Of a stretch of DNA of 32,329 bases, positions 9,350-23,075 are shown piece by piece. Origin of the DNA: an uncultured Verrucomicrobiales bacterium. GTDB lineage: Bacteria > Verrucomicrobiota > Verrucomicrobiia > Verrucomicrobiales > Akkermansiaceae. Made by a program: the position numbers and the translations under genes. Where the stretch lies: NCBI GenBank assembly GCA_913060685.1, contig CAJXVQ010000011.1, forward strand, positions 1 through 32,329, in the 5' to 3' direction. Positions within the stretch are counted from its first letter, which is position 1, and each line of letters begins with the position of its first letter. Below the pieces are notes generated by a model. It was not told where the DNA came from. It worked only from the letters and a program-made list of their open reading frames with translations, and ran no database searches.

Positions 9350-11002
9350 CTACTGTTTCAAGACGTAGACAAAGAGAGCTCCCATCGGTTTCTCGCCTTT
9401 TCCGAGCCAGGTTTGCAGGTCGTAGTCGCCCGCTTTCAAGTCGAGTTCGAAGCGTGCGGAAGTGGCATCGCCCGCAATATCCATCTCACCGATGATATTG
9501 CCGATCTGGATCTTGGCGTGGGTTTTCTTCATCGCCTTGTCTGCTTCGCGCGGGAAGTGCCGGCACTCGAACTCGTAGCGGCCATCGGCAACGATACTCA
9601 CGGCCCACTTTCCGTTTCCGGGTTTGCCGAAGTGACTGCTCGCCCATGGGGAACCTCCTGCATACCAGTCCATGCCGTTGAGCATGACCTCCGGGCATTC
9701 TTTCGCGCCGATCAAATGTCGGCTCAAGGTCGTGGCCTGATCAGGGAGGCTCGCCCAGTAGGATTCGTAAGTTACGCGGAGCTGTTTGACGACTTCTCGA
9801 TGGGCGGAGGCGACGTCGATCTTCTGGCGCGGATCCGCTTTGATGTCGTAGAGCTTTTCACCGTCAATAAGTCGCCAACGATCGGTCTTCACCGAGGAAT
9901 TTTTCCACTTGCTGGCAAGCCGTCCACGCGGGCATTGGATGATGAGGGTCCGGTCTTGTGGATATTCGGAAGCCTTCCCGAGGACGAGAGGTTTGAGGCT
10001 CACACCATCACTATTTTTAGGCGTCTCGATCCCACAGAAATCGAGCACGGTCGGAAAAAAATCAATCATCCCGGCAAGCCGCTCGCACACCTGGGGCTTG
10101 GCGCCCGGGACGCGAATAAAAAACGGTACGTGTTGCGCCGGGTCATAGGGAATGCCGAGACGGTTTCCACCATGCGGCGCACCGCGGTCGTTCATCCCCT
10201 GATCAGAGGCGTAGATGACTATGGTGTTTTCTGATAGCCCGAGCGCATCGAGTTTGTCCAACATGCGGCCAATGTTGGTATCGAGATTCTGGACTTGCGC
10301 GAACAAGCCGAGGTCACCCTCGATTCCTGCCGACTTGAGCTCTGCCACCAGATCTTTCGGTCCGTGGTGGGGTGAGTGGGTCACCGGAGTTGAGACGAAG
10401 CAGAAAAAGGGCTGGTCCTTTTTTGCTTCCACATAGTCCATGGCTCGATCGAAGAGCGTGTCGGTGCTGAAACCCTTGCTGGGAGTGACCTTGTCATTGT
10501 GGATGAAGGTCGTGTCGTAGTGGCTGTTGCCGTAGTAGTCCTCCATTTGTCCAACGCCACCACCTCGATGGATGAAGACCTCGTCGAAGCCGCGATCTTT
10601 CGGGCGGTGCGGGTAGGAGAAGCCCAGGTGCCACTTGCCGAAGATGCCGGTAGAGTATCCGTGCTTCTTAAGGATATCAGGCAGGGTGGTCCGATCCCGA
10701 TGCATGATCGACCTGCCGGCAATGGTGGTGAAAACTCCGGAACGCATCGCGTGTTGACCTGTCAGGATCACCGAGCGACTCGGGGAGCAATACGGTGGCG
10801 CGTAGAAGTGGGTGAATTCGACGCTCTGTTTCGCGAAGCGGTCGATGTGAGGGGTCATGATCTGTGCGTGCCCGTGGCAGCTCATTTCGTAGTAACTCTG
10901 GTTGTCCGAGAGGATGTAGACCACGTTCGGGGTCCTTGCGGTGGAACTGTGCGGAGTCGCAAGACACAGGGTCAGCAGGAAATGGAAAAACCGAGAATTC
11001 AT
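9350..11002 (-). CDS. Secreted S1-type sulfatase with C-terminal beta domain
   Basis: This 550-residue protein is a formylglycine-dependent sulfatase. A signal peptide (MNSRFFHFLLTLCLATPHSS) supports the start at 11002 rather than a longer frame opening at 11107. The maturation motif is YCSPSRSVILTGQ, with Cys72 as the residue converted to formylglycine. GKWHLGF and YASDQGMNDRGAP supply further active-site and Ca-binding residues. The first metal strand reads ILSDNQSYYEM, so the usual second Asp of the DD pair is Asn. Residues from about 445 form an additional domain (DGRYEFECRHFPRE ... LKAGDYDLQTWLGKGE) often found after PVC sulfatases. It cleaves sulfate esters from a glycan; which glycan cannot be told. 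It follows the rhodanese on the same strand, 91 bp apart. Confidence 0.9.
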   Translation of the reverse strand: MNSRFFHFLLTLCLATPHSSTARTPNVVYILSDNQSYYEMSCHGHAQIMTPHIDRFAKQSVEFTHFYAPPYCSPSRSVILTGQHAMRSGVFTTIAGRSIMHRDRTTLPDILKKHGYSTGIFGKWHLGFSYPHRPKDRGFDEVFIHRGGGVGQMEDYYGNSHYDTTFIHNDKVTPSKGFSTDTLFDRAMDYVEAKKDQPFFCFVSTPVTHSPHHGPKDLVAELKSAGIEGDLGLFAQVQNLDTNIGRMLDKLDALGLSENTIVIYASDQGMNDRGAPHGGNRLGIPYDPAQHVPFFIRVPGAKPQVCERLAGMIDFFPTVLDFCGIETPKNSDGVSLKPLVLGKASEYPQDRTLIIQCPRGRLASKWKNSSVKTDRWRLIDGEKLYDIKADPRQKIDVASAHREVVKQLRVTYESYWASLPDQATTLSRHLIGAKECPEVMLNGMDWYAGGSPWASSHFGKPGNGKWAVSIVADGRYEFECRHFPREADKAMKKTHAKIQIGNIIGEMDIAGDATSARFELDLKAGDYDLQTWLGKGEKPMGALFVYVLKQ

Positions 11003-11093
11003 CCCGACAAGTAAAGCAGTTTGAAATGCGTGTGGGGAGGAAAAGATCATCCGGATTGGGCTGCACAAGGAAGAGCGTGATACCCTGAATAGT

Positions 11094-12131
11094 CTACGAC
11101 GGATCAATTTGTTTGACGATAGGATGGTCCGGATTGTGGGACCAGCCGAAGAATCCGTTGTCGTAATTCCGGGCTTGGAGGCCGAGGAGATGGGCCACTA
11201 AAAAGGCGATGCTGGATCGCCAGCCGGTGCCGCAATAAAAGATCAGGACGGTTGAACCCTCTGCGACTTTTTTATCGATGATTCCCTGGTCCCACCAACG
11301 GCGGGCCACAATGTCGAGATGGGGCGCGAGGCGTTTCGTACGGCCATCCATAAGATTTTCCCAGTCTCCCTGATGGATCGCTCCCGGGATGCGACCGGCG
11401 CGCGAGAAGAAGGAATACTTCATGGGGGCGGTCCCGTTCCATTCGCCTTTGGTGCGCACGTCGATGAGCTTGCCAACTTGGGGAGCCGGTGCGCCCTTGG
11501 AGATTTTTTGAAGGTCTTCGGTGTGGGCGAGAAATTCGGTGCGGAAAGTCCAGGGACGCCCAGGTCCGGTCGGATCGTGGGCATGGTCCCAGACATTTTT
11601 GATCGCGAGAGACGGCTCTTCTCCGTGGTCAATCCAGGCATCGAGTCCACCATCAAGGAGGCGAACGGTTCGAACTCCGGCATGCATCAGGCCCCAGACG
11701 AGTCGCGCGGCAGCCATGACACCATCGGGGTCGCTGCCATAGACCACGACGCGTGAATCGGGAGTGATTCCCAGGTATTCGAGGGCGTGAATGAGCTCGG
11801 CTTGAGGCATGATGTTGGACTCCGAGGGGTGCTCGTAAAAGGGATAGTATTTACTCCGGTTCAGCCCTGCTTCCAAATAGGAAGGGTGGATTTGAATGGC
11901 GCCGGGAATGTGCCCGAAGATGGGCATTTCAGGGTCGAGGGGATGGTCAATTGAGGAAAAGTGGGCCTCGAGCAGGATGAGATTGGCTGCCAGAGCGGGC
12001 TCCTGGCGGGCCTTGATGAGATACTCAGGTCCCACAAGCGCGAATGGAGCTTCAGAATCAGGACACAAGGCACCAGCAATCCCTTGAGGGGCAGTCTGCG
12101 TGGGCTGAATGTTGGCGGTTCGGAGTTTCAT
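11094..12131 (-). CDS. Tandem-rhodanese sulfurtransferase, CGTGWR type (EanB-like)
   Basis: This 345-residue protein has two rhodanese domains. The first (about 45-175) has HIPGAIQI and VVVYGSDPDGVMAAARLVWG; its active-site loop lacks Cys, so it is inactive. The second (about 215-340) has KLIDVRTKGEW, GRIPGAIHQGDW and the loop FYCGTGWRSS with catalytic Cys300, followed by YDNGFFGWSHNPDHPI. From memory, this loop and tail closely resemble EanB, the rhodanese that converts hercynine to ergothioneine in green sulfur bacteria, although CGTGWR sulfurtransferases with other roles are widespread. No signal peptide is seen. It is divergent from the EgtB-type gene at 12276 across 144 bp, which supports but does not prove a shared thiohistidine role. 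It could also serve the sulfatase downstream. Confidence 0.85.
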   Translation of the reverse strand: MKLRTANIQPTQTAPQGIAGALCPDSEAPFALVGPEYLIKARQEPALAANLILLEAHFSSIDHPLDPEMPIFGHIPGAIQIHPSYLEAGLNRSKYYPFYEHPSESNIMPQAELIHALEYLGITPDSRVVVYGSDPDGVMAAARLVWGLMHAGVRTVRLLDGGLDAWIDHGEEPSLAIKNVWDHAHDPTGPGRPWTFRTEFLAHTEDLQKISKGAPAPQVGKLIDVRTKGEWNGTAPMKYSFFSRAGRIPGAIHQGDWENLMDGRTKRLAPHLDIVARRWWDQGIIDKKVAEGSTVLIFYCGTGWRSSIAFLVAHLLGLQARNYDNGFFGWSHNPDHPIVKQIDPS

Positions 12132-12275
12132 CAGAGATATGACTGAAGTCTTGTGTTAGAGTTCTTCTTTCCCGGAATATTGCCAGTTTTTTTGTATTTC
12201 TCATCAGTGTCGCCGATGAACGTTTCAAAGAGGGTGCAATTCAGGAAGGAATCCGTTCGTAACACATAATGATCC
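12132..12275. promoter_or_regulatory. Divergent promoter region between rhodanese and EgtB-type genes
   Basis: These 144 bp separate two divergent starts, so each must be expressed from here. No strong Shine-Dalgarno sequence precedes either ATG. A CATAAT hexamer lies 6 bp upstream of the EgtB-type ATG at 12276 and would imply a nearly leaderless mRNA if it were a -10 box. That reading is weak. I could not find a convincing -35 partner. Confidence 0.35.
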
Positions 12276-13565
12276 ATGAACAGCAGAGAAGAGATTGCCT
12301 TGGAACTTGATGAGGTGGACCGAAGGGCTCGCTCCCTTTTGGACGATCTCGATGAGTCGCAACTCGCGGTGCCCTACTCTCGCGGGATTAATCCTCCCAT
12401 TTGGGAACTCGGTCACGTGGCCTTCTTTTACGAATACTTTCTCCTGCGTCAGTTGGGAGGAAGTGAGGCCCGGATGCCGGGTTATGATGATGTGTGGGAT
12501 TCTTTCGAGATCTCACACCGGCATCGCTGGACTCCCGGGGTCGTTCCTGAAAAAGAAAGGATGTTGGATTACTATTGCGGGGTGCTTGGGGAAACCCGGG
12601 CGAGGCTGGCAAATGAGGAAATCAGTGATCATGAGCGCTATCTTTTCCGCTACGTGATTCATCATCACCACATGCATATCGAATCTCTTTTATGGGGGAG
12701 ACAAACGCTGGGATACGCGCCGCCGATTTTTCCAGGTGCGGAGCGTGAGGTTCCAAAGTCGACCGGGATTTCGGGAGATGCCCGTGTGGACGGGGGCGAG
12801 TATTTCCAGGGAATGCCGCCGCTCTCACCGGGTGTTTTTAGTTTCGACAACGAACGTCCCGGTCATCGTGTCACGGTGGAACCCTTTGCGATTTCGAAAA
12901 CCCTCGTGACCAATGGCGAGTTTCTAAAATTCGTGGATGATGGGGGCTATGGTCAAGAGTCCTTGTGGGATTTCGGCGGGAGATGTTGGTTGGCAGAGGG
13001 ACCGGGAGGGAGTCGGGAGATGCCGGAATATTGGGGTCGCCAGGAAGGCGGGACCTGGCAGCATCGCAAATTTGACCGCTGGGAAGATCTCCCTTTGGAG
13101 GCTCCGATCGTGCATGTGAGCGTATGGGAGGCGGAGGCATTTTGTCGCTGGGCGGGACGTCGCCTTCCGACCGAGCCTGAGTGGGAAGCGGCGGCTCGGG
13201 GCCTTGATCAGAAAAAGTTTCCCTGGGGGGGAGAGGTGATGGATGCAAGCCGCGTGGACATGGATGGGCGGCTCTTTGCCACTGCTCCGGCAGATGCCTT
13301 TATTGAAGGCGCGAGCGGTGCTGGATGTTTGCAGATGATGGGGACGGTGTGGGAGTGGACCTCGACCCAATTTTTGCCATATGCGGGATTTGAAATCGAC
13401 ATGTATCACTACATGTCGGTGCTGCAATTTGGCGACCACCGGGTCACCAAAGGGGGATCCTGTGCGACTTGCTCAAGTTTGATTCGTAACAGTTACCGGC
13501 AAGCCTACCTCCCGGGAAGAACGGATGCCTTTACGGGATTCCGGACCTGTGCTCTCGTTACTTAG
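12276..13565 (+). CDS. EgtB/OvoA/SenA-type nonhaem iron sulfoxide synthase
   Basis: This 429-residue protein has the two-domain layout of the family. The N-terminal DinB-like domain carries the iron ligands: His47 in WELGHVAFFYEYFLLR, then the H-x3-H-x-E motif at His130/His134/Glu136 within IHHHHMHIE. In mycobacterial EgtB the equivalents are, from memory, His51, His134 and His138. The C-terminal FGE-sulfatase-like (C-type lectin) domain has WAGRRLPTEPEWEAAARG, GTVWEWTSTQFLPYAGF and TDAFTGFRTC. Such enzymes join a thiol or selenol to hercynine or histidine with O2. An odd C-x2-C pair occurs at GGSCATC, where EgtB proteins often have Trp. No EgtD methyltransferase is in the window, so ergothioneine, ovothiol and selenoneine are not separable. 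It is divergent from the rhodanese. Confidence 0.85.
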   Translation: MNSREEIALELDEVDRRARSLLDDLDESQLAVPYSRGINPPIWELGHVAFFYEYFLLRQLGGSEARMPGYDDVWDSFEISHRHRWTPGVVPEKERMLDYYCGVLGETRARLANEEISDHERYLFRYVIHHHHMHIESLLWGRQTLGYAPPIFPGAEREVPKSTGISGDARVDGGEYFQGMPPLSPGVFSFDNERPGHRVTVEPFAISKTLVTNGEFLKFVDDGGYGQESLWDFGGRCWLAEGPGGSREMPEYWGRQEGGTWQHRKFDRWEDLPLEAPIVHVSVWEAEAFCRWAGRRLPTEPEWEAAARGLDQKKFPWGGEVMDASRVDMDGRLFATAPADAFIEGASGAGCLQMMGTVWEWTSTQFLPYAGFEIDMYHYMSVLQFGDHRVTKGGSCATCSSLIRNSYRQAYLPGRTDAFTGFRTCALVT

Positions 13566-14929: not shown

Positions 14930-17725
14930 ATGGCCAAAGCTGCACGGAAAGGCAAAAAACCACTTACAAAATTGGAACAATTGATCGTCGACTTGAAGAA
15001 GTCGCTTCCGGTGAAGCAGGATTGGCGCTCGACCGATGAACAAGAAATCGCGCGTCGTCAACTCCGTGCGTTGGAGCAGCCGCCCGCCATTCGGAATCTC
15101 ACTCCGAAGCACCGAATTTTTTCCAATTTCGAGGTGACCTCGCCCGAGAGCGAACTCACTTATTTTGTCGAAATTCGCGACCTCGCGGGCCGTGATTTTC
15201 ACTCAAGCTCGCCCGATTTTTCCCACAATGGACTGGGCACCTGCAAGCACACCGAGGCCGTCCTCTTTCATCTTCAAAATCGCTTCCCGGGACTCTACAA
15301 AAAAGCTCTCAAGGACAGAAGCGGACGATGCGATCTCATCGAGGACACTGCCACCAATACCCTCCGTCTCGTCAATCCAGCCAACGCAGATCTATCTCGC
15401 GACTTTCGCTTGAACTTCGACAAAAAGGGCTTTCTTAAGCCCGCCAAGGATCCCCTCAAAGTCCTCGCCAAGGCCGGCGAAATCGAGGATCCCAACTTCC
15501 GCATCTGCCAGTCCGTGGTGCCCTTCCTGGAATCACTTGCGAATGAACGCGAAGCCCTCCAGCTCCGGCGCGATTACGAGCAGCGCGTCCAGTCCGGGGA
15601 GTATCCTCCTCACGAAACCAAGCTTCCTCTTTTTCCCTATCAACGCGAGGGCATGCTCCATCTCGCTTTCGGTGAGCGGGCCATGGTCGCTGATGAAATG
15701 GGCCTTGGGAAAACCCCGCAAGGCATCGCAGCTGCCGCCCTTCTCCATCGCATGGGGAAGGCGACCCGTTGCCTCGTCGTTACTCCCGCTTCGCTCAAAA
15801 CCGAGTGGGAGGAACAGATCGCCAAATTCACCGACCTCCCGTGCGAGGTCGTCTACGGCTCACGGCAACAGCGCGTCGCGATCTATCAAAATCCCTCCGC
15901 CTTTTTCACCATTGTTAATTACGAGCAGGTCCGCAGCGACACCCTCGATATTAATGCCGCCTTCGCCGCCGATATCGTGATTCTCGATGAAGCCCAACGC
16001 ATTAAAAACTGGGCCTCCAAGACCGCGCGCGCCATCAAGCGACTTGAGAGTCGCTACGCCTTCGTCCTGACCGGCACGCCGATCGAGAACCGGATCGATG
16101 AGATTTATTCCATTACCGAGTTCCTCAATCCGGCCATTTTCGGTCCGCTTTTCCGCTTCAATCGTGATCACTATTCCTTTGATGAAGAGGGCAGGCCGGA
16201 AGGTTATCGGAACCTCGATCAGATGCGCAAAAAGCTCAAGTCCATCATGCTCCGTCGCCGCAAGCATGACGTCGAAACCGAGCTTCCCGAGCGCACCGAT
16301 GAGATTCGTTTTGTGGAACTCACCGAGGGCCAACGGGCGGAGCACGATGAAAATGCCCAAAAAGTCAGGCAGCTTCTCGCCCGTGCAAAAAAACGGGCTC
16401 TCCGTAAAGAAGAGCACGAATTCCTCATGATCCTCCTCGGGAAAATGCGCATGCTTTGCGACACCCAGTTCATCCTCGACAAGGAAACCCGGGTCTCTCC
16501 CAAGCTCGATGAATTGGTAGAGATTTTTGACACCGCCCTTGCCGATCCCGATACCAAAATCATCGTTTTTTCCGAGTGGATTGGCATGCTGACGCTCATT
16601 CGGGATCATCTCGAAGCACAGAAAATCGGCTTCGCCTGGCACACCGGAAGCGTCCCGCAAATCAAGCGACGGAAGGAGATTTCCGCTTTTAAGCAAGATC
16701 CCGATTGTCGCATTTTCCTCTGCACCGAGTCCGGTGGCTCCGGCCTCAATTTGCAAAATGCCAGCGTCGTCATCAATGTCGATCTTCCTTGGAATCCCGC
16801 CAAGCTCGAGCAACGGATCGCACGGGCGTGGCGCAAAGGTCAAAGCCGCCCTGTCACTGTCATCAATCTGATTGCCCGCCAAACCATCGAGCACGGAATG
16901 CTCGAAACCCTCGCCGTCAAACAAGGTCTGTCTGATGGCGTCCTCGATGGCATGGGGGAACTCAGCGAAGTCAAACTAAAGCGTGGCGGTCAGTCCTTCC
17001 TCACCCGGCTCCAGCAAACGCTCATGACCGGCGAGAATTTCGTCATTAAAAAATTCCCGGCCCGTAAAAAGCTCTCCAAAGACCCCGGAGCCGACTTCGC
17101 GGCGGCACTCAAGGATACTCTCAAGAACACGATGATTTCCTGCGAAGAGCAATTCATCACCGACACCGAGGCTCCCCCTAAGATTGTTCTCATACTCCAG
17201 AAAGACACCCCGAAAACGAGAGAGAGAATCATTGCCCAACTCAGGGAGGCGATGCCCCACCTGGGTGAAGCATCTACAGAGGAAATTGAGGAACGTCTCC
17301 TCATCCTCGATGAATCGCAAGCGAGTGCCCTGGAGAAACTGCAACGCCTCGGTCTCGTTCAAACGAGAGTCCGCGCCCGCCGGAATCTCCTTGGGAAAAC
17401 CGAACCCGCCCCCAAGAACGAACTCTCCGAAGAAGATCAGAAGCGTCTCGAGGACCTCGAAGCTGATCTCGTCAAAAAGCTCAAAACAGTGTCCCTCCTT
17501 CTCCCCGCTGATCTCTGGGAAGAAGCCGTCCCGGCCCTCACCGCCGCCCTCCTTGGGCGAGCCCGGATCAGCGCAATCAAGGAAGGGAGCCACGGGCCGA
17601 AGAAAGCGGAAGACCTCGCCGACCCCGCCTTCGCCCATCTCCTGGTAGATGCCGAACTCACGGAGAAATTTCTCACCGATCCCGATGCTGAAATTGTCGG
17701 GAATTTGGCCAATGCCCTAAACTAA
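14930..17725 (+). CDS. SNF2-family DEAD/DEAH-box helicase with degenerate SWIM finger
   Basis: This 931-residue protein is a Snf2/Rad54-like ATP-dependent translocase. Motif I is ADEMGLGKT (about 254-262), motif II is DEAQ (about 353-356), motif III is LTGTPIEN, and motifs V and VI are GGSGLNLQ and QRIARAWRKGQ. Near residues 78-114 there is a SWIM-like element: YFVEIRDLAGRDFHSSSPDF followed by GTCKHTEAVLFHL. The C-x-H half is kept (C105, H107), but the first C-x-C is replaced. Residues 700-931 form a charged helical tail of unknown role. Such proteins remodel protein-DNA complexes or help repair. An AGGA lies 8 bp before the ATG. The GNAT-type gene follows 12 bp downstream and is probably co-transcribed. 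Confidence 0.9.
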   Translation: MAKAARKGKKPLTKLEQLIVDLKKSLPVKQDWRSTDEQEIARRQLRALEQPPAIRNLTPKHRIFSNFEVTSPESELTYFVEIRDLAGRDFHSSSPDFSHNGLGTCKHTEAVLFHLQNRFPGLYKKALKDRSGRCDLIEDTATNTLRLVNPANADLSRDFRLNFDKKGFLKPAKDPLKVLAKAGEIEDPNFRICQSVVPFLESLANEREALQLRRDYEQRVQSGEYPPHETKLPLFPYQREGMLHLAFGERAMVADEMGLGKTPQGIAAAALLHRMGKATRCLVVTPASLKTEWEEQIAKFTDLPCEVVYGSRQQRVAIYQNPSAFFTIVNYEQVRSDTLDINAAFAADIVILDEAQRIKNWASKTARAIKRLESRYAFVLTGTPIENRIDEIYSITEFLNPAIFGPLFRFNRDHYSFDEEGRPEGYRNLDQMRKKLKSIMLRRRKHDVETELPERTDEIRFVELTEGQRAEHDENAQKVRQLLARAKKRALRKEEHEFLMILLGKMRMLCDTQFILDKETRVSPKLDELVEIFDTALADPDTKIIVFSEWIGMLTLIRDHLEAQKIGFAWHTGSVPQIKRRKEISAFKQDPDCRIFLCTESGGSGLNLQNASVVINVDLPWNPAKLEQRIARAWRKGQSRPVTVINLIARQTIEHGMLETLAVKQGLSDGVLDGMGELSEVKLKRGGQSFLTRLQQTLMTGENFVIKKFPARKKLSKDPGADFAAALKDTLKNTMISCEEQFITDTEAPPKIVLILQKDTPKTRERIIAQLREAMPHLGEASTEEIEERLLILDESQASALEKLQRLGLVQTRVRARRNLLGKTEPAPKNELSEEDQKRLEDLEADLVKKLKTVSLLLPADLWEEAVPALTAALLGRARISAIKEGSHGPKKAEDLADPAFAHLLVDAELTEKFLTDPDAEIVGNLANALN

Positions 17726-19332: not shown

Positions 19333-20097
19333 TCAAATCACGCGGTCGTTGCCGCCGTCGATGGGGATCTGGGCACCGGTGGTGGCGGAGAAGACGGGGC
19401 CGGCGACGGTGCTTACGAGGGCGGCGACTCCGGGGGAGGTGATCTCGGTGCTGAGGAGGTTTTTGGTTTTATACTCCTGGACGGTCATGTTGTAGCGCTT
19501 GGCCGATTTCTCCAAGGCTTCGTCTGACCAGATCTCAGTGTCGAAGACGGCATCGGGATGAAGCACGTTGACACGGACACCGAAGGGGGCGAGTTCGAGG
19601 GCCGCGACGCGGGCGAGTTGGGTGACGCCGGCTTTGGTGACGGAGTAGGCGGAAGCTCCTGGTCCTGGCGCGGCGTAGTTGCGCGAGCCGATGATGATGA
19701 TGGAGGCGTCGGTTCCTTCCTTAAGATAGGGGATGGAGAACTTGAGGAAGCGCTGGGTGGCGGTGAGATTGATCTTGAGGTGGAGGTCCCAGCTGTCTTC
19801 GAGGGCGTCGATGTATTCGCCTGATTTGAAGATGCCGGCGTTGGCGACAATGATGTCGAGGCTGCCGTATTTGGCGGCGGTTTCATCAATGATCTTTTTC
19901 ATGGCGGCGTCATCGGTGATGTCGCAGACGACTCCGGTGAGGCGCTCGCCGGTGAGGTTTGTGACGACGTCGGGGTTGATGTCGAGGCCAACGACGGTGG
20001 CCCCGTCATTGCGCAGTCTTTCGGCAGTGGCACGGCCGATTCCTCCGCAGGCTCCGGTGACAATGGCGATCTTATTGGCGTGGATTTGTTCGGACAT
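19333..20097 (-). CDS. SDR-family NAD(P)-dependent oxidoreductase
   Basis: This 254-residue protein is a classical short-chain dehydrogenase. The cofactor loop is TGACGGIG (14-21), and Asp39 at the end of the second strand (VVGLDI) favours NAD. NAG is at about 86-88. The catalytic Ser138 lies in IIIIGSRN, and Tyr151 and Lys155 in SAYSVTK. The C-terminal IDGG motif is present. Its neighbours (epimerase-like, LsrF-like and Tm-1-like proteins) suggest that it oxidises or reduces a polyol, sugar or sugar acid in the same pathway. The 3' part of the gene (19409-19459) is duplicated beyond vapBC. It lies 56 bp after the epimerase-like gene, and the spacer carries an A/C-rich leader and no Shine-Dalgarno sequence. 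Confidence 0.92.
   Translation of the reverse strand: MSEQIHANKIAIVTGACGGIGRATAERLRNDGATVVGLDINPDVVTNLTGERLTGVVCDITDDAAMKKIIDETAAKYGSLDIIVANAGIFKSGEYIDALEDSWDLHLKINLTATQRFLKFSIPYLKEGTDASIIIIGSRNYAAPGPGASAYSVTKAGVTQLARVAALELAPFGVRVNVLHPDAVFDTEIWSDEALEKSAKRYNMTVQEYKTKNLLSTEITSPGVAALVSTVAGPVFSATTGAQIPIDGGNDRVI
19409..19459. repeat. Direct repeat copy 2, inside the SDR gene
   Basis: This is the functional copy: on the minus strand it encodes LLSTEITSPGVAALVS of the SDR protein. It differs from copy 1 (18540-18590) at two positions, one silent and one giving Glu instead of Ala. The two copies stand in the same orientation 818 bp apart. Confidence 0.9.
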
Positions 20098-20137
20098 GAT
20101 TTTGAAAGTTTGAAGTCTTCAGTTGGAAGTTTGAAGG
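20098..20137 (-). repeat. A/C-rich leader repeat upstream of the SDR gene
   Basis: Read on the plus strand, this spacer holds AGTTTGAAGT (20107-20116), three bases, then CAGTTGGAAGT (20120-20130). The same two blocks occur at 20841-20871 upstream of the epimerase-like gene. On the coding strand they form an unstructured A/C-rich 5' leader without a Shine-Dalgarno sequence. Confidence 0.6.
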
Positions 20138-20153
20138 GCCTGGGTGGTGGTGC

Positions 20154-20831
20154 CTAGGAAGAGAGGGTTTGGTTGAAGAAGGCGAGGTTTTCGACGGGAT
20201 CTTCGTTGTTGAAGATGGCGGAGCCGGAGACCACGAAGTGGGGTTTCATGGCCGCGATTTGGGGGATGGTGGATTTGTTGACGCCGCCATCGATGCAGAT
20301 GAGGAGCTCGGGTTTCCACTCGAGGAGGGTTTTGATTTTCGCGGGGAGGTCGTCGAGGAAGAGCTCCTTGCCGGAGTAAGGGCCGACGCCGAGGAGGAGG
20401 ACGTAGTCGATTTGATCGAGGTATTTTTTGATGAAATTGACAGAGGTTCCGGGGTTTATGGATACGCCGCGGACGATGTCTTCGTGCGCGGAAATGCGCG
20501 CGAGGGTATCATCGATGTGGGCGGTGTATTCGACAGAGAAAGAGATGAGATCTGCTCCGGCTTTCGCGAAGGCGTCGATGTGTTGTTTCGGTTTGTTGAT
20601 GAGGAGGTGGACGTCTTTGAGGAGGTCCGTTTTAAGGCCGGCAACGAAGGGGGATCCGACGGTGATGTTGGGCCAAATATTGCCGTCCATGACATCGAAG
20701 TGGAGGAGGTTGACGTCGTTCTCCTTGAGGATTTGGAGGGCGGCGTTTTGGTTGCCCATATCGGCGCTGAGAGTGGCGACGGAGAGTTGGGGACGGGAGC
20801 GGATGAGTTCGATTTTTTCGGCGCGTGTCAT
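20154..20831 (-). CDS. Ribulose-phosphate 3-epimerase-like protein with altered phosphate loop
   Basis: This 225-residue protein has the Rpe TIM barrel: LSVATLSADM at the first strand, LLHFDVMDGNIWPNITVG with metal ligands His44 and Asp46, DVHLLI with His75, and ICIDGGV with catalytic Asp181. The normal VNPGFGGQ phosphate-binding loop is instead GVGPYSGK, and the usual H-x-E strand reads SVEYTAHID. These changes suggest a substrate other than ribulose 5-phosphate, for example a tetrulose, branched or hexulose phosphate. I start it at 20831 (MTRAEKIEL); the longer frame from 20876 reads through the leader repeat. The gene lies beyond an intrinsic terminator that follows the LsrF-type gene, and upstream of the SDR gene. 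Confidence 0.85.
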   Translation of the reverse strand: MTRAEKIELIRSRPQLSVATLSADMGNQNAALQILKENDVNLLHFDVMDGNIWPNITVGSPFVAGLKTDLLKDVHLLINKPKQHIDAFAKAGADLISFSVEYTAHIDDTLARISAHEDIVRGVSINPGTSVNFIKKYLDQIDYVLLLGVGPYSGKELFLDDLPAKIKTLLEWKPELLICIDGGVNKSTIPQIAAMKPHFVVSGSAIFNNEDPVENLAFFNQTLSS

Positions 20832-20840
20832 GGGGAAAGG

Positions 20841-20871
20841 AGTTTGAAGTTTGAAGTGATCAGTTGGAAGT
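20841..20871 (-). repeat. A/C-rich leader repeat upstream of the epimerase-like gene
   Basis: AGTTTGAAGT (20841-20850) and CAGTTGGAAGT (20861-20871) recur here with a 10-base spacer, matching the leader of the SDR gene. The repeat ends about 10 bp upstream of the start codon at 20831 and lacks a Shine-Dalgarno sequence. Confidence 0.6.
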
Positions 20872-20875
20872 CGCA

Positions 20876-20912
20876 AAATTAAAAACCCCGGGCCTGCGGT
20901 GAAGCCCGGGGT
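20876..20912 (-). terminator. Intrinsic terminator after the LsrF-type gene
   Basis: A perfect 9-bp stem (ACCCCGGGC pairing with GCCCGGGGT, 20885-20893 and 20904-20912) has a 10-nt loop. On the minus strand it is followed by TTTTTAATTTT. It lies about 40 bp after the LsrF-type stop codon. The epimerase and SDR genes downstream must therefore have their own promoter or depend on read-through. Confidence 0.85.
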
Positions 20913-20951
20913 GTTGATGATTGATTGTGCGCCTGAAAAGCGCCGCTACCC

Positions 20952-21818
20952 TTAGCCAGCGTTGTAGATCTCGATCGCTTCGGCGGGCTTGGCACCGTTG
21001 TGGACGACTTCCTTGACGGCTCTCATCATGGCGAGAGGTTTGTCGGACTGGAAGACGTTGCGGCCCATGTCGACTCCGGAAGCGCCACACTGGATGGCGT
21101 TGTAGCAGAGTTCGAGTGCCTCGAGCTCAGGGAGCTTTTTACCACCGGCGATGACGACGGGGACGGGGCAGGCGGCGACGACGTTCTCGAAGCCTTCGGT
21201 GTAGTAGGTCTTCACGATAGATGCACCGTTTTCAGCACAAACGCGGGAAGCGAGGCCAAAGTAGCGGGAGTCGCGAGCCATGTCCTTGCCGACAGCGGTG
21301 ACACCCATGACGGGGATGCTGTATTTGTTGCCGATGTCGACGAGGCGACTGAAGTTGGCGACGGTGGTGGCTTCGGTGTCGGCGTCACCGATGGCGAGCA
21401 TGGCTGCCATGGCGGAGACGTTCATGGAGATGGCGTCGATCTCGGAGATGAGAACGTTGTGGTTCATCTCGGTGAGGATGGTGGTGCCGGAATCAGTGCG
21501 GAGACAGATGGGCTTGGTGTTTTCCGCCGGGATGGAGGTGCGGATCATGCCGCGGCAGCCCATGAGGCAGTCTGCTTCTTCGGCAAGCGGAGCGATATTG
21601 AGATCGATACGCTCAAGACCGGAAGTGGGTCCCATGAGGAAGCCGTGGTCGAATGCAAGCATGACGGTGCGTCCGGACTTGCGGTTGAAGATGCGGGACA
21701 TGCGGTTTTTGATGCCCCATGATGCGCTGTTCATTCCCTTGAGGTAAAATGAAGAGGTGTCGGCGGGTGTGTTGAGACCGAAGTTGTCTCCGTCTCTGAT
21801 GTCGTCTAAGTCAGCCAT
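20952..21818 (-). CDS. lsrF: LsrF-type 3-hydroxy-5-phosphonooxypentane-2,4-dione thiolase/class I aldolase
   Basis: This 288-residue protein closely follows E. coli LsrF as I remember it, beginning with MADLDDI and including LKGMNSASWG, SRIFNRKSGRTVMLAFDHGF, GPTSGLERID, VGKDMARDSRYF, VIAGGKKLPE and GASGVDMGRNVFQSD. Lys203 in IVKTYY falls at the number of the Schiff-base lysine of LsrF. LsrF ends the autoinducer-2 degradation route by transferring an acetyl group from the phosphorylated dione to CoA, giving acetyl-CoA and dihydroxyacetone phosphate. No lsrK, lsrG, lsrR or transporter gene is in the window, so the substrate here may be a related phosphorylated sugar or dione. It lies 39 bp after the Tm-1-like gene and is followed by a terminator. 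Confidence 0.88.
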   Translation of the reverse strand: MADLDDIRDGDNFGLNTPADTSSFYLKGMNSASWGIKNRMSRIFNRKSGRTVMLAFDHGFLMGPTSGLERIDLNIAPLAEEADCLMGCRGMIRTSIPAENTKPICLRTDSGTTILTEMNHNVLISEIDAISMNVSAMAAMLAIGDADTEATTVANFSRLVDIGNKYSIPVMGVTAVGKDMARDSRYFGLASRVCAENGASIVKTYYTEGFENVVAACPVPVVIAGGKKLPELEALELCYNAIQCGASGVDMGRNVFQSDKPLAMMRAVKEVVHNGAKPAEAIEIYNAG

Positions 21819-21857
21819 GGTATTAGTTGGTTGGTGGGTTGGTTTGTAAGAAAGTGA

Positions 21858-23075
21858 TTATTTTTCGAGCTTGTCGATGAGGTAGGAAACGGCGCGCTCG
21901 ACGAGGGCGGGGTCCTGGGCGGTGACGTCCATGGATTCGATCTCGATGGTGTCGGGGAGTTCTTTTTGGAGGGACTCCCAGTAGGCGGCATCGAGCGCAG
22001 GATTGTAGAGTTCGCCACCTTCGGCGGAGTAACTGGAAACGCCCTTGAGGGGCATGAGAAAGAGGGTGTCCTTGGTGGAGTATTTGAGTTTTTCTCCGAT
22101 GACTTTGGCGACGCGGCCTTGTTCTTCGGCATTGAGGCGAGGAACGAAGACGTAGGGTGAGTGCCAGGTGATCTGGTGATCTTCATACCCGGCGGGGACC
22201 TTGCTGGGCTCGTTGACGAGGATGCCGAGGTGCTCGGATCCTCCCGGGACGATGACCTGGGGGAGGCCGAGTTTTCCGGCGACGGTGAGTCGGTCGGGGC
22301 CGCCAGCGCGGAGGACGCCCCAGACACCGTCGGCGATTTCTCCGAGGCCATAGTCGAAGACGGCGTTGATGATGCCTTCTTTCATCATCTGCTCCATGGC
22401 GTCGCCACCGGCACCGATGGCGTGGAAGGTGATGACTTCGTAGCCCGCTTTTTCAAAGAGGTCGATGGCGTGCATCGCCCCTTGGGTCAGGACACCGAGA
22501 TTGGACATGCCAATGACGCCCTTGGCGACGGACTTGGTGATGCACTGCTCGGATTGAGCCATGCCCCAAGCGGCGGCGGCGGCATTGGCGAGGATCTTGC
22601 GGGAGAAAACGTTGAGCCCGAGGATGTCTGATACGGCAAACATCATGGTGATGTCCTTGATGCCTACAAAGGGAGAGGTGTCACCGGAGGCGGCGGTGGA
22701 GAGCATGACCTTCGGGAAGCCATAGGGAAGGGCCTGGAGGATGGGGGCGCAGGTCGAGGTGCCCTGGGTGCCACCGAGGGTGACGACGGCGTCAATTTTT
22801 CCAGCTTCCTGGAGTTCCAGGAGGAGCTTGGTGGCGCCGGCGACGATGAAGGGGTTGGATTGCTCGCGGTTGGGTTTGACGAGGAGTTCGTCGAGATTGC
22901 CTCCGCCAGCGGAGATGACTTCCTGCTTGGTAATATCCGCCTTGAGGTCGGAGTCACCAACGAGGGAGAGGTCAATGAGGAAGGCCTTGCCGCCGAGGGT
23001 CTCGATTTCGGTGCGCATGAAGTCGGCCTCGGCCGCTTTGGTGTCGAGGGTAGCGAGAATGGCGACTGTTTTCAT
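21858..23075 (-). CDS. Tm-1-like ATP-binding domain protein (UPF0261)
   Basis: This 405-residue protein matches the full-length Tm-1-like/UPF0261 family, whose N-terminal domain binds ATP in the tomato antiviral protein Tm-1. Conserved blocks are ILATLDTKAAEADFMRTEI (7-25), VVTLGGTQGTST, VMLSTAASGDTSPFVG, the Ala-rich NAAAAAWGMA, IGMSNLGVLTQGAM, ITFHAIGAGGDAMEQM and FVPRLNAEEQGRV. The biochemical role of the bacterial proteins is not established to my knowledge. In this operon it stands directly upstream of the LsrF-type gene and could supply the ATP-using step of that pathway, but this is inference. The gene is preceded by a 159-bp region holding candidate AraC sites. Confidence 0.9.
   Translation of the reverse strand: MKTVAILATLDTKAAEADFMRTEIETLGGKAFLIDLSLVGDSDLKADITKQEVISAGGGNLDELLVKPNREQSNPFIVAGATKLLLELQEAGKIDAVVTLGGTQGTSTCAPILQALPYGFPKVMLSTAASGDTSPFVGIKDITMMFAVSDILGLNVFSRKILANAAAAAWGMAQSEQCITKSVAKGVIGMSNLGVLTQGAMHAIDLFEKAGYEVITFHAIGAGGDAMEQMMKEGIINAVFDYGLGEIADGVWGVLRAGGPDRLTVAGKLGLPQVIVPGGSEHLGILVNEPSKVPAGYEDHQITWHSPYVFVPRLNAEEQGRVAKVIGEKLKYSTKDTLFLMPLKGVSSYSAEGGELYNPALDAAYWESLQKELPDTIEIESMDVTAQDPALVERAVSYLIDKLEK

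Follow-up and report, generated by a model that had tools for sequence, protein, structure and literature searches.

Gene content and conservation of the locus

In the window, the whole 32,329-nucleotide stretch of Verrucomicrobiales DNA that was analysed, two genes with divergent starts encode a rhodanese and a member of the EgtB superfamily. The features of the locus are as follows.

11094–12131, minus strand: gene for a two-domain rhodanese of a rare subfamily (345 amino acids; Pfam Rhodanese twice; loop FYCGTGWRSS)
11217–11234, minus strand: active loop CGTGWR, C300–R305, matching EanB C412–R417; invariant in the subfamily, also present in EanB and YnjE
11415–11417, minus strand: Y239, aligned with the catalytic Tyr353 of EanB; invariant in the subfamily, Tyr in YnjE, too
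12132–12275, no strand: intergenic region of 144 bp between the divergent starts
12276–13565, plus strand: gene for a very probable OvsA-type selenoxide synthase (EgtB superfamily; 429 amino acids; Pfam DinB_2 and FGE-sulfatase)
12414–12677, plus strand (first and last base): codons of the iron ligands H47, H130 and H134, assigned by alignment
13413–13415, plus strand: M380, OvsA signature residue; Tyr in EgtB, SenA and the engineered OvsA chain 8ux5
13500–13505, plus strand: Q409-A410, OvsA signature; N-W in EgtB, N-F in SenA and 8ux5

A preliminary description of this DNA had placed a rhodanese with the EanB-type loop FYCGTGWRSS divergent from an EgtB-superfamily gene, and this arrangement was confirmed for both the ORFs and their domains. 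The DinB_2 and FGE-sulfatase domains of the plus-strand product represent the architecture of EgtB, OvoA, SenA and OvsA; in the window rhodanese, no signal peptide was seen. Counterparts of the two proteins from a genome of the same genus (G253) showed 75% and 64–65% identity, with dN values of 0.18 and 0.28 for the two genes and synonymous sites near or beyond saturation. Both genes are under purifying selection relative to G253, and their retention in this genome with low dN at saturated synonymous sites excludes an origin as chance ORFs. Neither a sigma-70-like promoter nor a terminator was found in the 144-bp intergenic region. A block in this region (TGTTAGAGTTCT...CCAGTTTTTT) is common to the window and G253; as it is also partly present in a genome without the rhodanese (G291), it may belong to ovsA.

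A sulfatase ORF (9350–11107) shares the minus strand with the rhodanese gene, and its first possible start overlaps the end of the latter by 14 bp; the two are perhaps co-transcribed. On the other side, approximately 6 kb, including an SNF2 helicase gene (14930–17725), lie between ovsA and a block of SDR/epimerase/aldolase-like genes (19336–23075, minus strand). This block directly adjoins ovsA in locus L056, and its first gene is also found beside ovsA in L050.

The plus-strand gene very probably encodes an OvsA-type enzyme

The best solved relative of the 12276–13565 product was OvsA (8u41/8u42, 427 bits), compared with 198 bits for EgtB and 178 bits for SenA. OvsA is the selenoxide synthase of ovoselenol biosynthesis from Vreelandella/Halomonas utahensis (PDB 8u41/8u42; reported by Kayrouz et al. 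in 2024); enzymes of this type attach selenium to histidine, which yields an antioxidant. The equivalents of the iron ligands H47, H130 and H134 were invariant across all relatives, OvsA, SenA and EgtB. A residue motif for OvsA was derived by comparing 8u41 with the engineered chain 8ux5, in which three residues of the aligned part are replaced (Met by Tyr and Gln-Ala by Asn-Phe). At these positions the window protein has M/Q/A, EgtB Y/N/W and SenA Y/N/F; M/Q/A was found in all 70 close relatives having those residues (one of them with M-Q-S), and Y/N/F in seven SenA-like relatives. In an IQ-TREE phylogeny, the window protein and V. utahensis OvsA (L109) fell into one clade supported at 100/100; in the part compared, the L109 product does not differ from the crystallised protein 8u41. 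The NCBIfam SenA model gave a score of 411.9, below the cut-off of 420; the name of this model is not decisive, because true OvsA is also caught by it (428). Judged from these sequence comparisons, 12276–13565 very probably encodes an OvsA-type enzyme, and the bit scores, the M/Q/A signature and the 100/100 clade show that the earlier label of an EgtB-type sulfoxide synthase referred to the wrong subfamily.

Two other identities were considered for this gene product. EgtB was rejected because of Met and Gln-Ala at the positions where EgtB has Tyr and Asn-Trp, and because of the missing EgtD (see below); SenA was rejected on the basis of the NCBIfam score under the cut-off and of M/Q/A instead of Y/N/F.

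Selenium metabolism in the window's genome

EgtB and EanB both act on hercynine. A search of the assembly, which is 93.6% complete, gave no match to the EgtD/EanA-type methyltransferase family PF10017, with positive controls from E. coli and Methanosarcina; hercynine should therefore be missing from this genome. Thus, no egtD turned up elsewhere in the genome, and the link between two ergothioneine chemistries that the preliminary description had envisaged is not supported in view of this result, of M/Q/A in place of Y/N/W, and of the grouping of EanB with YnjE (see below).

A SenB homologue is encoded on another contig than ovsA (G000:C125:1301–2227). It scored 234 bits with the cut-off at 300, matched solved SenB structures with 128 bits, and retains the N/T, K and EGG residues found important in SenB (PMC10891094). 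The gene is part of a tight cysS-senB-kinase operon, the kinase of which matches N-acetylhexosamine 1-kinase (E 7e-78). This cysS-senB-nahK operon is kept in four genomes of the window's clade (L013/L049, G000:C125 159–3669; L199, L201, L202), and we infer that the nahK-like kinase could recycle GlcNAc freed when the selenosugar adduct breaks.

SelU, the tRNA 2-selenouridine synthase MnmH (415 bits, L003 823–1881, G000:C72), and SelB (307 bits) were both identified, whereas SelD gave no match in the window's own assembly (93.6% complete, 840 contigs). SelB and SelU both depend on selenophosphate metabolism, and the absence of SelD is therefore likely an assembly gap rather than a loss. Among the 32 OvsA genomes searched, SenB was present in all 32 and SelD in 31, the sole exception being the window's assembly. 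Most of the Verrucomicrobiota SelD matches (L169–L187) contain one in-frame TGA, consistent with a selenoprotein.

ovsA neighbourhoods in other genomes

A scan of 84,980 species yielded 80 loci. In PVC loci with upstream sequence, senB was located directly before the ovsA-type gene in 25 of 27 cases, and several of these senB-ovsA loci additionally contain selD and selA facing away. The two exceptions without an adjoining senB (L051 and L056) are members of the window's own small clade, and there senB is found in the cysS-senB-nahK operon. A TIGR04345 methyltransferase is encoded after ovsA in 16 proteobacterial loci; within 10 kb of ovsA, no match to this family was obtained in any PVC locus, including that of the window. 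The senB-ovsA layout without the TIGR04345 N-methyltransferase was observed in the PVC loci L050–L073, L093 and L123. The product of the PVC genomes may be unmethylated, or another methyltransferase may be used.

Sequence and predicted structure of the rhodanese

The best solved-structure match of the window rhodanese was EanB (78 bits), followed by YnjE (65 bits). The EanB likeness proposed initially is thus real; it is not diagnostic. Roles of Cys412, Tyr353 and Arg417 in EanB have been described (PMC10903977), and the equivalents of these three residues and of Thr414 are all invariant in the rhodanese subfamily (alignment A3), the Cys of the C-terminal loop being its sole conserved cysteine. 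E. coli YnjE also has the CGTGWR loop and the catalytic Tyr, neither of which is therefore specific for EanB. In the phylogenetic tree, EanB and YnjE (45% identity) formed a group with 100/98 support, apart from the subfamily of the window rhodanese (90/93). The latter did not fall among general thiosulfate sulfurtransferases (TST), and forms a subfamily of its own. An AlphaFold model of the rhodanese (pLDDT 84) was nearest to EanB (Z 32), with YnjE and MST/TST both at 30 (range 32 to 29); such a predicted structure cannot discriminate among EanB, YnjE and TST/MST.

Membership of the window rhodanese in EanB was considered separately and is rejected on the basis of the tree, which places EanB with YnjE.

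Distribution of the rhodanese subfamily and of the gene pair

In samples drawn from the class (384 genomes) and the phylum (387 genomes), the rhodanese subfamily was detected in 3–4 class genomes, the fourth (G125) being weak and YnjE-like, and in two phylum genomes. It was present in nine of the 25 PVC genomes with OvsA and absent from the remaining 16 as well as from all seven proteobacterial OvsA genomes tested, which shows that the OvsA pathway does not require it. The nine of 25 compare with one of 58 SelB-positive, OvsA-negative class genomes, a count of strong members that leaves out G125, and the resulting enrichment (Fisher p 5e-5) ignores phylogeny; the hypergeometric values likewise make no correction for common descent, and most of the carriers are MAGs. 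Two carriers (G287 and G297; L190, L191) originate from one sample and have near-identical rhodaneses with more divergent ovsA genes, which points to a possible binning error.

All four class carriers are SelB-positive, compared with 60 of 384 genomes overall. In G340 (L197, G340:C97, 527–4958), selA (494 bits) and selB (307 bits) adjoin a rhodanese gene of the subfamily in divergent orientation, and no OvsA match was obtained in this genome at E 1e-60. As the class carriers are SelB-positive, and as the G340 gene stands beside selA-selB without an OvsA match, the common thread is selenium rather than OvsA alone. The remaining carriers have the rhodanese among unrelated genes.

Two congeneric species, those of the window and of G253, retain the rhodanese-ovsA pair. 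Hence, the pairing is conserved in so far as it is not unique to one genome, but this conservation does not extend to the two sister species G286 and G291, which both have ovsA and gave no rhodanese homologue. A PVC-type dehydrogenase gene adjoins ovsA in G291, whereas in G253 a similar gene is followed by the rhodanese and then ovsA, indicating that the rhodanese was gained or lost at that spot; the 'empty' G291 locus contained no rhodanese remnant. Since both outer flanks of the pair differ between the window and G253, the two genes stayed together through rearrangement.

Proposed function of the locus and alternatives

We propose a selenium-metabolite pathway, with the rhodanese carrying or delivering selenium, and consider the chances of this whole reading to be evenly balanced. 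SenB would make a selenosugar from selenophosphate and a UDP-sugar, the OvsA-type iron enzyme would use O2 to join the selenosugar to histidine, and collapse of the selenoxide would leave a selenol, namely a 5-selenohistidine of the ovoselenol type; the use of histidine and selenosugar by the window enzyme is a prediction. The rhodanese would most likely bind selenium at Cys300 in perselenide form and pass it on to selenophosphate synthesis, or, alternatively, it might maintain reactive selenium or sulfur in the state that the OvsA/SenB and Sec pathways require. The putative carrier role, to which we assign slightly less than even weight, is based on the genomic association and on the precedent of bovine rhodanese; the latter forms a perselenide that has been suggested as a selenium source for making selenophosphate (Ogasawara 2001, cited in PMC9369223). 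Of the initial idea that the rhodanese supplies sulfur or selenium, the selenium direction fits the association, and carrying as such stays a candidate function. A dedicated bacterial selenium-transfer rhodanese serving both selenometabolite and Sec synthesis is conceivable and put forward more tentatively still.

A doubtful yet serious explanation takes the rhodanese for an ordinary sulfurtransferase of the thiosulfate/mercaptopyruvate type that stands incidentally beside ovsA, which alone would do the selenium work. Such a chance neighbour agrees with the occurrence of the pair in two species only, with ovsA but no rhodanese homologue in the sister species, with the location of most homologues amid unrelated genes, and with the closeness of the fold scores for EanB, YnjE and MST/TST. 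However, the subfamily is distinct, rare in the class and phylum samples and enriched in OvsA genomes, and its position beside selA-selB in an unrelated genus would require a second selenium neighbour by chance, which is unlikely.

An activity after OvsA is improbable; the rhodanese would remove or reduce the selenium product or sugar adduct as an EgtE-like stand-in, or strip sulfane sulfur from the selenol. The selenoxide made by SenA breaks down to the selenol of its own accord, with no lyase involved (PMC10903977), so a lyase should be superfluous after OvsA as well. Moreover, most OvsA genomes lack the rhodanese, and G340 has it with no OvsA match; these points stand against the direct vicinity to ovsA and the conserved cysteine, which is predicted to form a persulfide or perselenide.

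We give very little credence to an EanB-like rhodanese that puts sulfur or selenium directly onto the imidazole as the O2-free twin of the O2-dependent OvsA route. If true, this imidazole-modifying rhodanese would unite O2-dependent and O2-free routes to chalcogen-histidine in one locus, and both the best solved match and the invariant equivalents of Cys412, Thr414, Arg417 and Tyr353 are in line with it. YnjE, however, shares these residues and clusters with EanB, no EgtD/EanA homologue was found in the window's genome, two domains and 345 amino acids contrast with the longer EanB chains (441–460 amino acids), and the partner genes are selenium genes; ergothioneine synthesis of the EanB type is not supported. 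Finally, the Pfam FGE-sulfatase domain and the nearby sulfatase gene (9350–11107) could suggest that the plus-strand product generates formylglycine in that sulfatase; this is ruled out by the DinB_2 domain, the three-His iron site and the end-to-end OvsA alignment, and a single sulfatase neighbour says little because sulfatases recur around ovsA loci.

With the selenium-metabolite pathway as the preferred reading, the locus shifts from ergothioneine to selenium metabolism. The OvsA/SenB selenometabolite pathway is present across genomes of Verrucomicrobiota and Planctomycetota, in which ovsA is not accompanied by a neighbouring gene for an OvsM-type methyltransferase. To our knowledge, the route of reactive selenium to SelD in bacteria is still unsettled, and the rhodanese subfamily is a specific candidate for this delivery. 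A CGTGWR loop alone does not imply EanB, nor does an FGE/EgtB match alone imply ergothioneine. As far as the literature examined shows, two points are new, the gene layouts in PVC genomes and the subfamily's association with both OvsA and selA-selB; the accessible parts of the selenium bioinformatics literature mention rhodanese-like selenoproteins and SelU, and the window subfamily was not met in them.

Comparison with known systems

The window protein is 48% identical to V. utahensis OvsA end to end and shares with it the three His, M/Q/A and the clade. The OvsA locus of V. utahensis has the order senB-ovsA-methyltransferase (TIGR04345, 277 bits) with selD nearby, whereas the window's genome has senB on another contig, the rhodanese as ovsA neighbour, and no TIGR04345 gene within 10 kb. 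The SenA/SenB selenoneine pathway of Variovorax paradoxus has in common with the window's genome a SenB homologue and the logic of selenosugar and iron selenoxide synthase; SenA, however, has Y/N/F and uses hercynine from EgtD, in contrast to M/Q/A and no EgtD homologue found.

EanB from Chlorobium limicola (PDB 6h98, 6ktv) resembles the window rhodanese in the CGTGWR loop, the catalytic Tyr and the fold. At 35% identity, the window protein falls outside the EanB and YnjE clade, is without a visible hercynine supply, and comprises only two rhodanese domains in 345 amino acids, compared with crystal chains of 441–460 amino acids for EanB. The E. coli sulfurtransferase YnjE has the same loop and Tyr (Z 30), but is only 28–30% identical to the window rhodanese and nearer to EanB. 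Bovine rhodanese is distant in sequence from the window protein, a candidate selenium carrier; the two share a two-domain fold with one active cysteine, and the role proposed for both would be the same.
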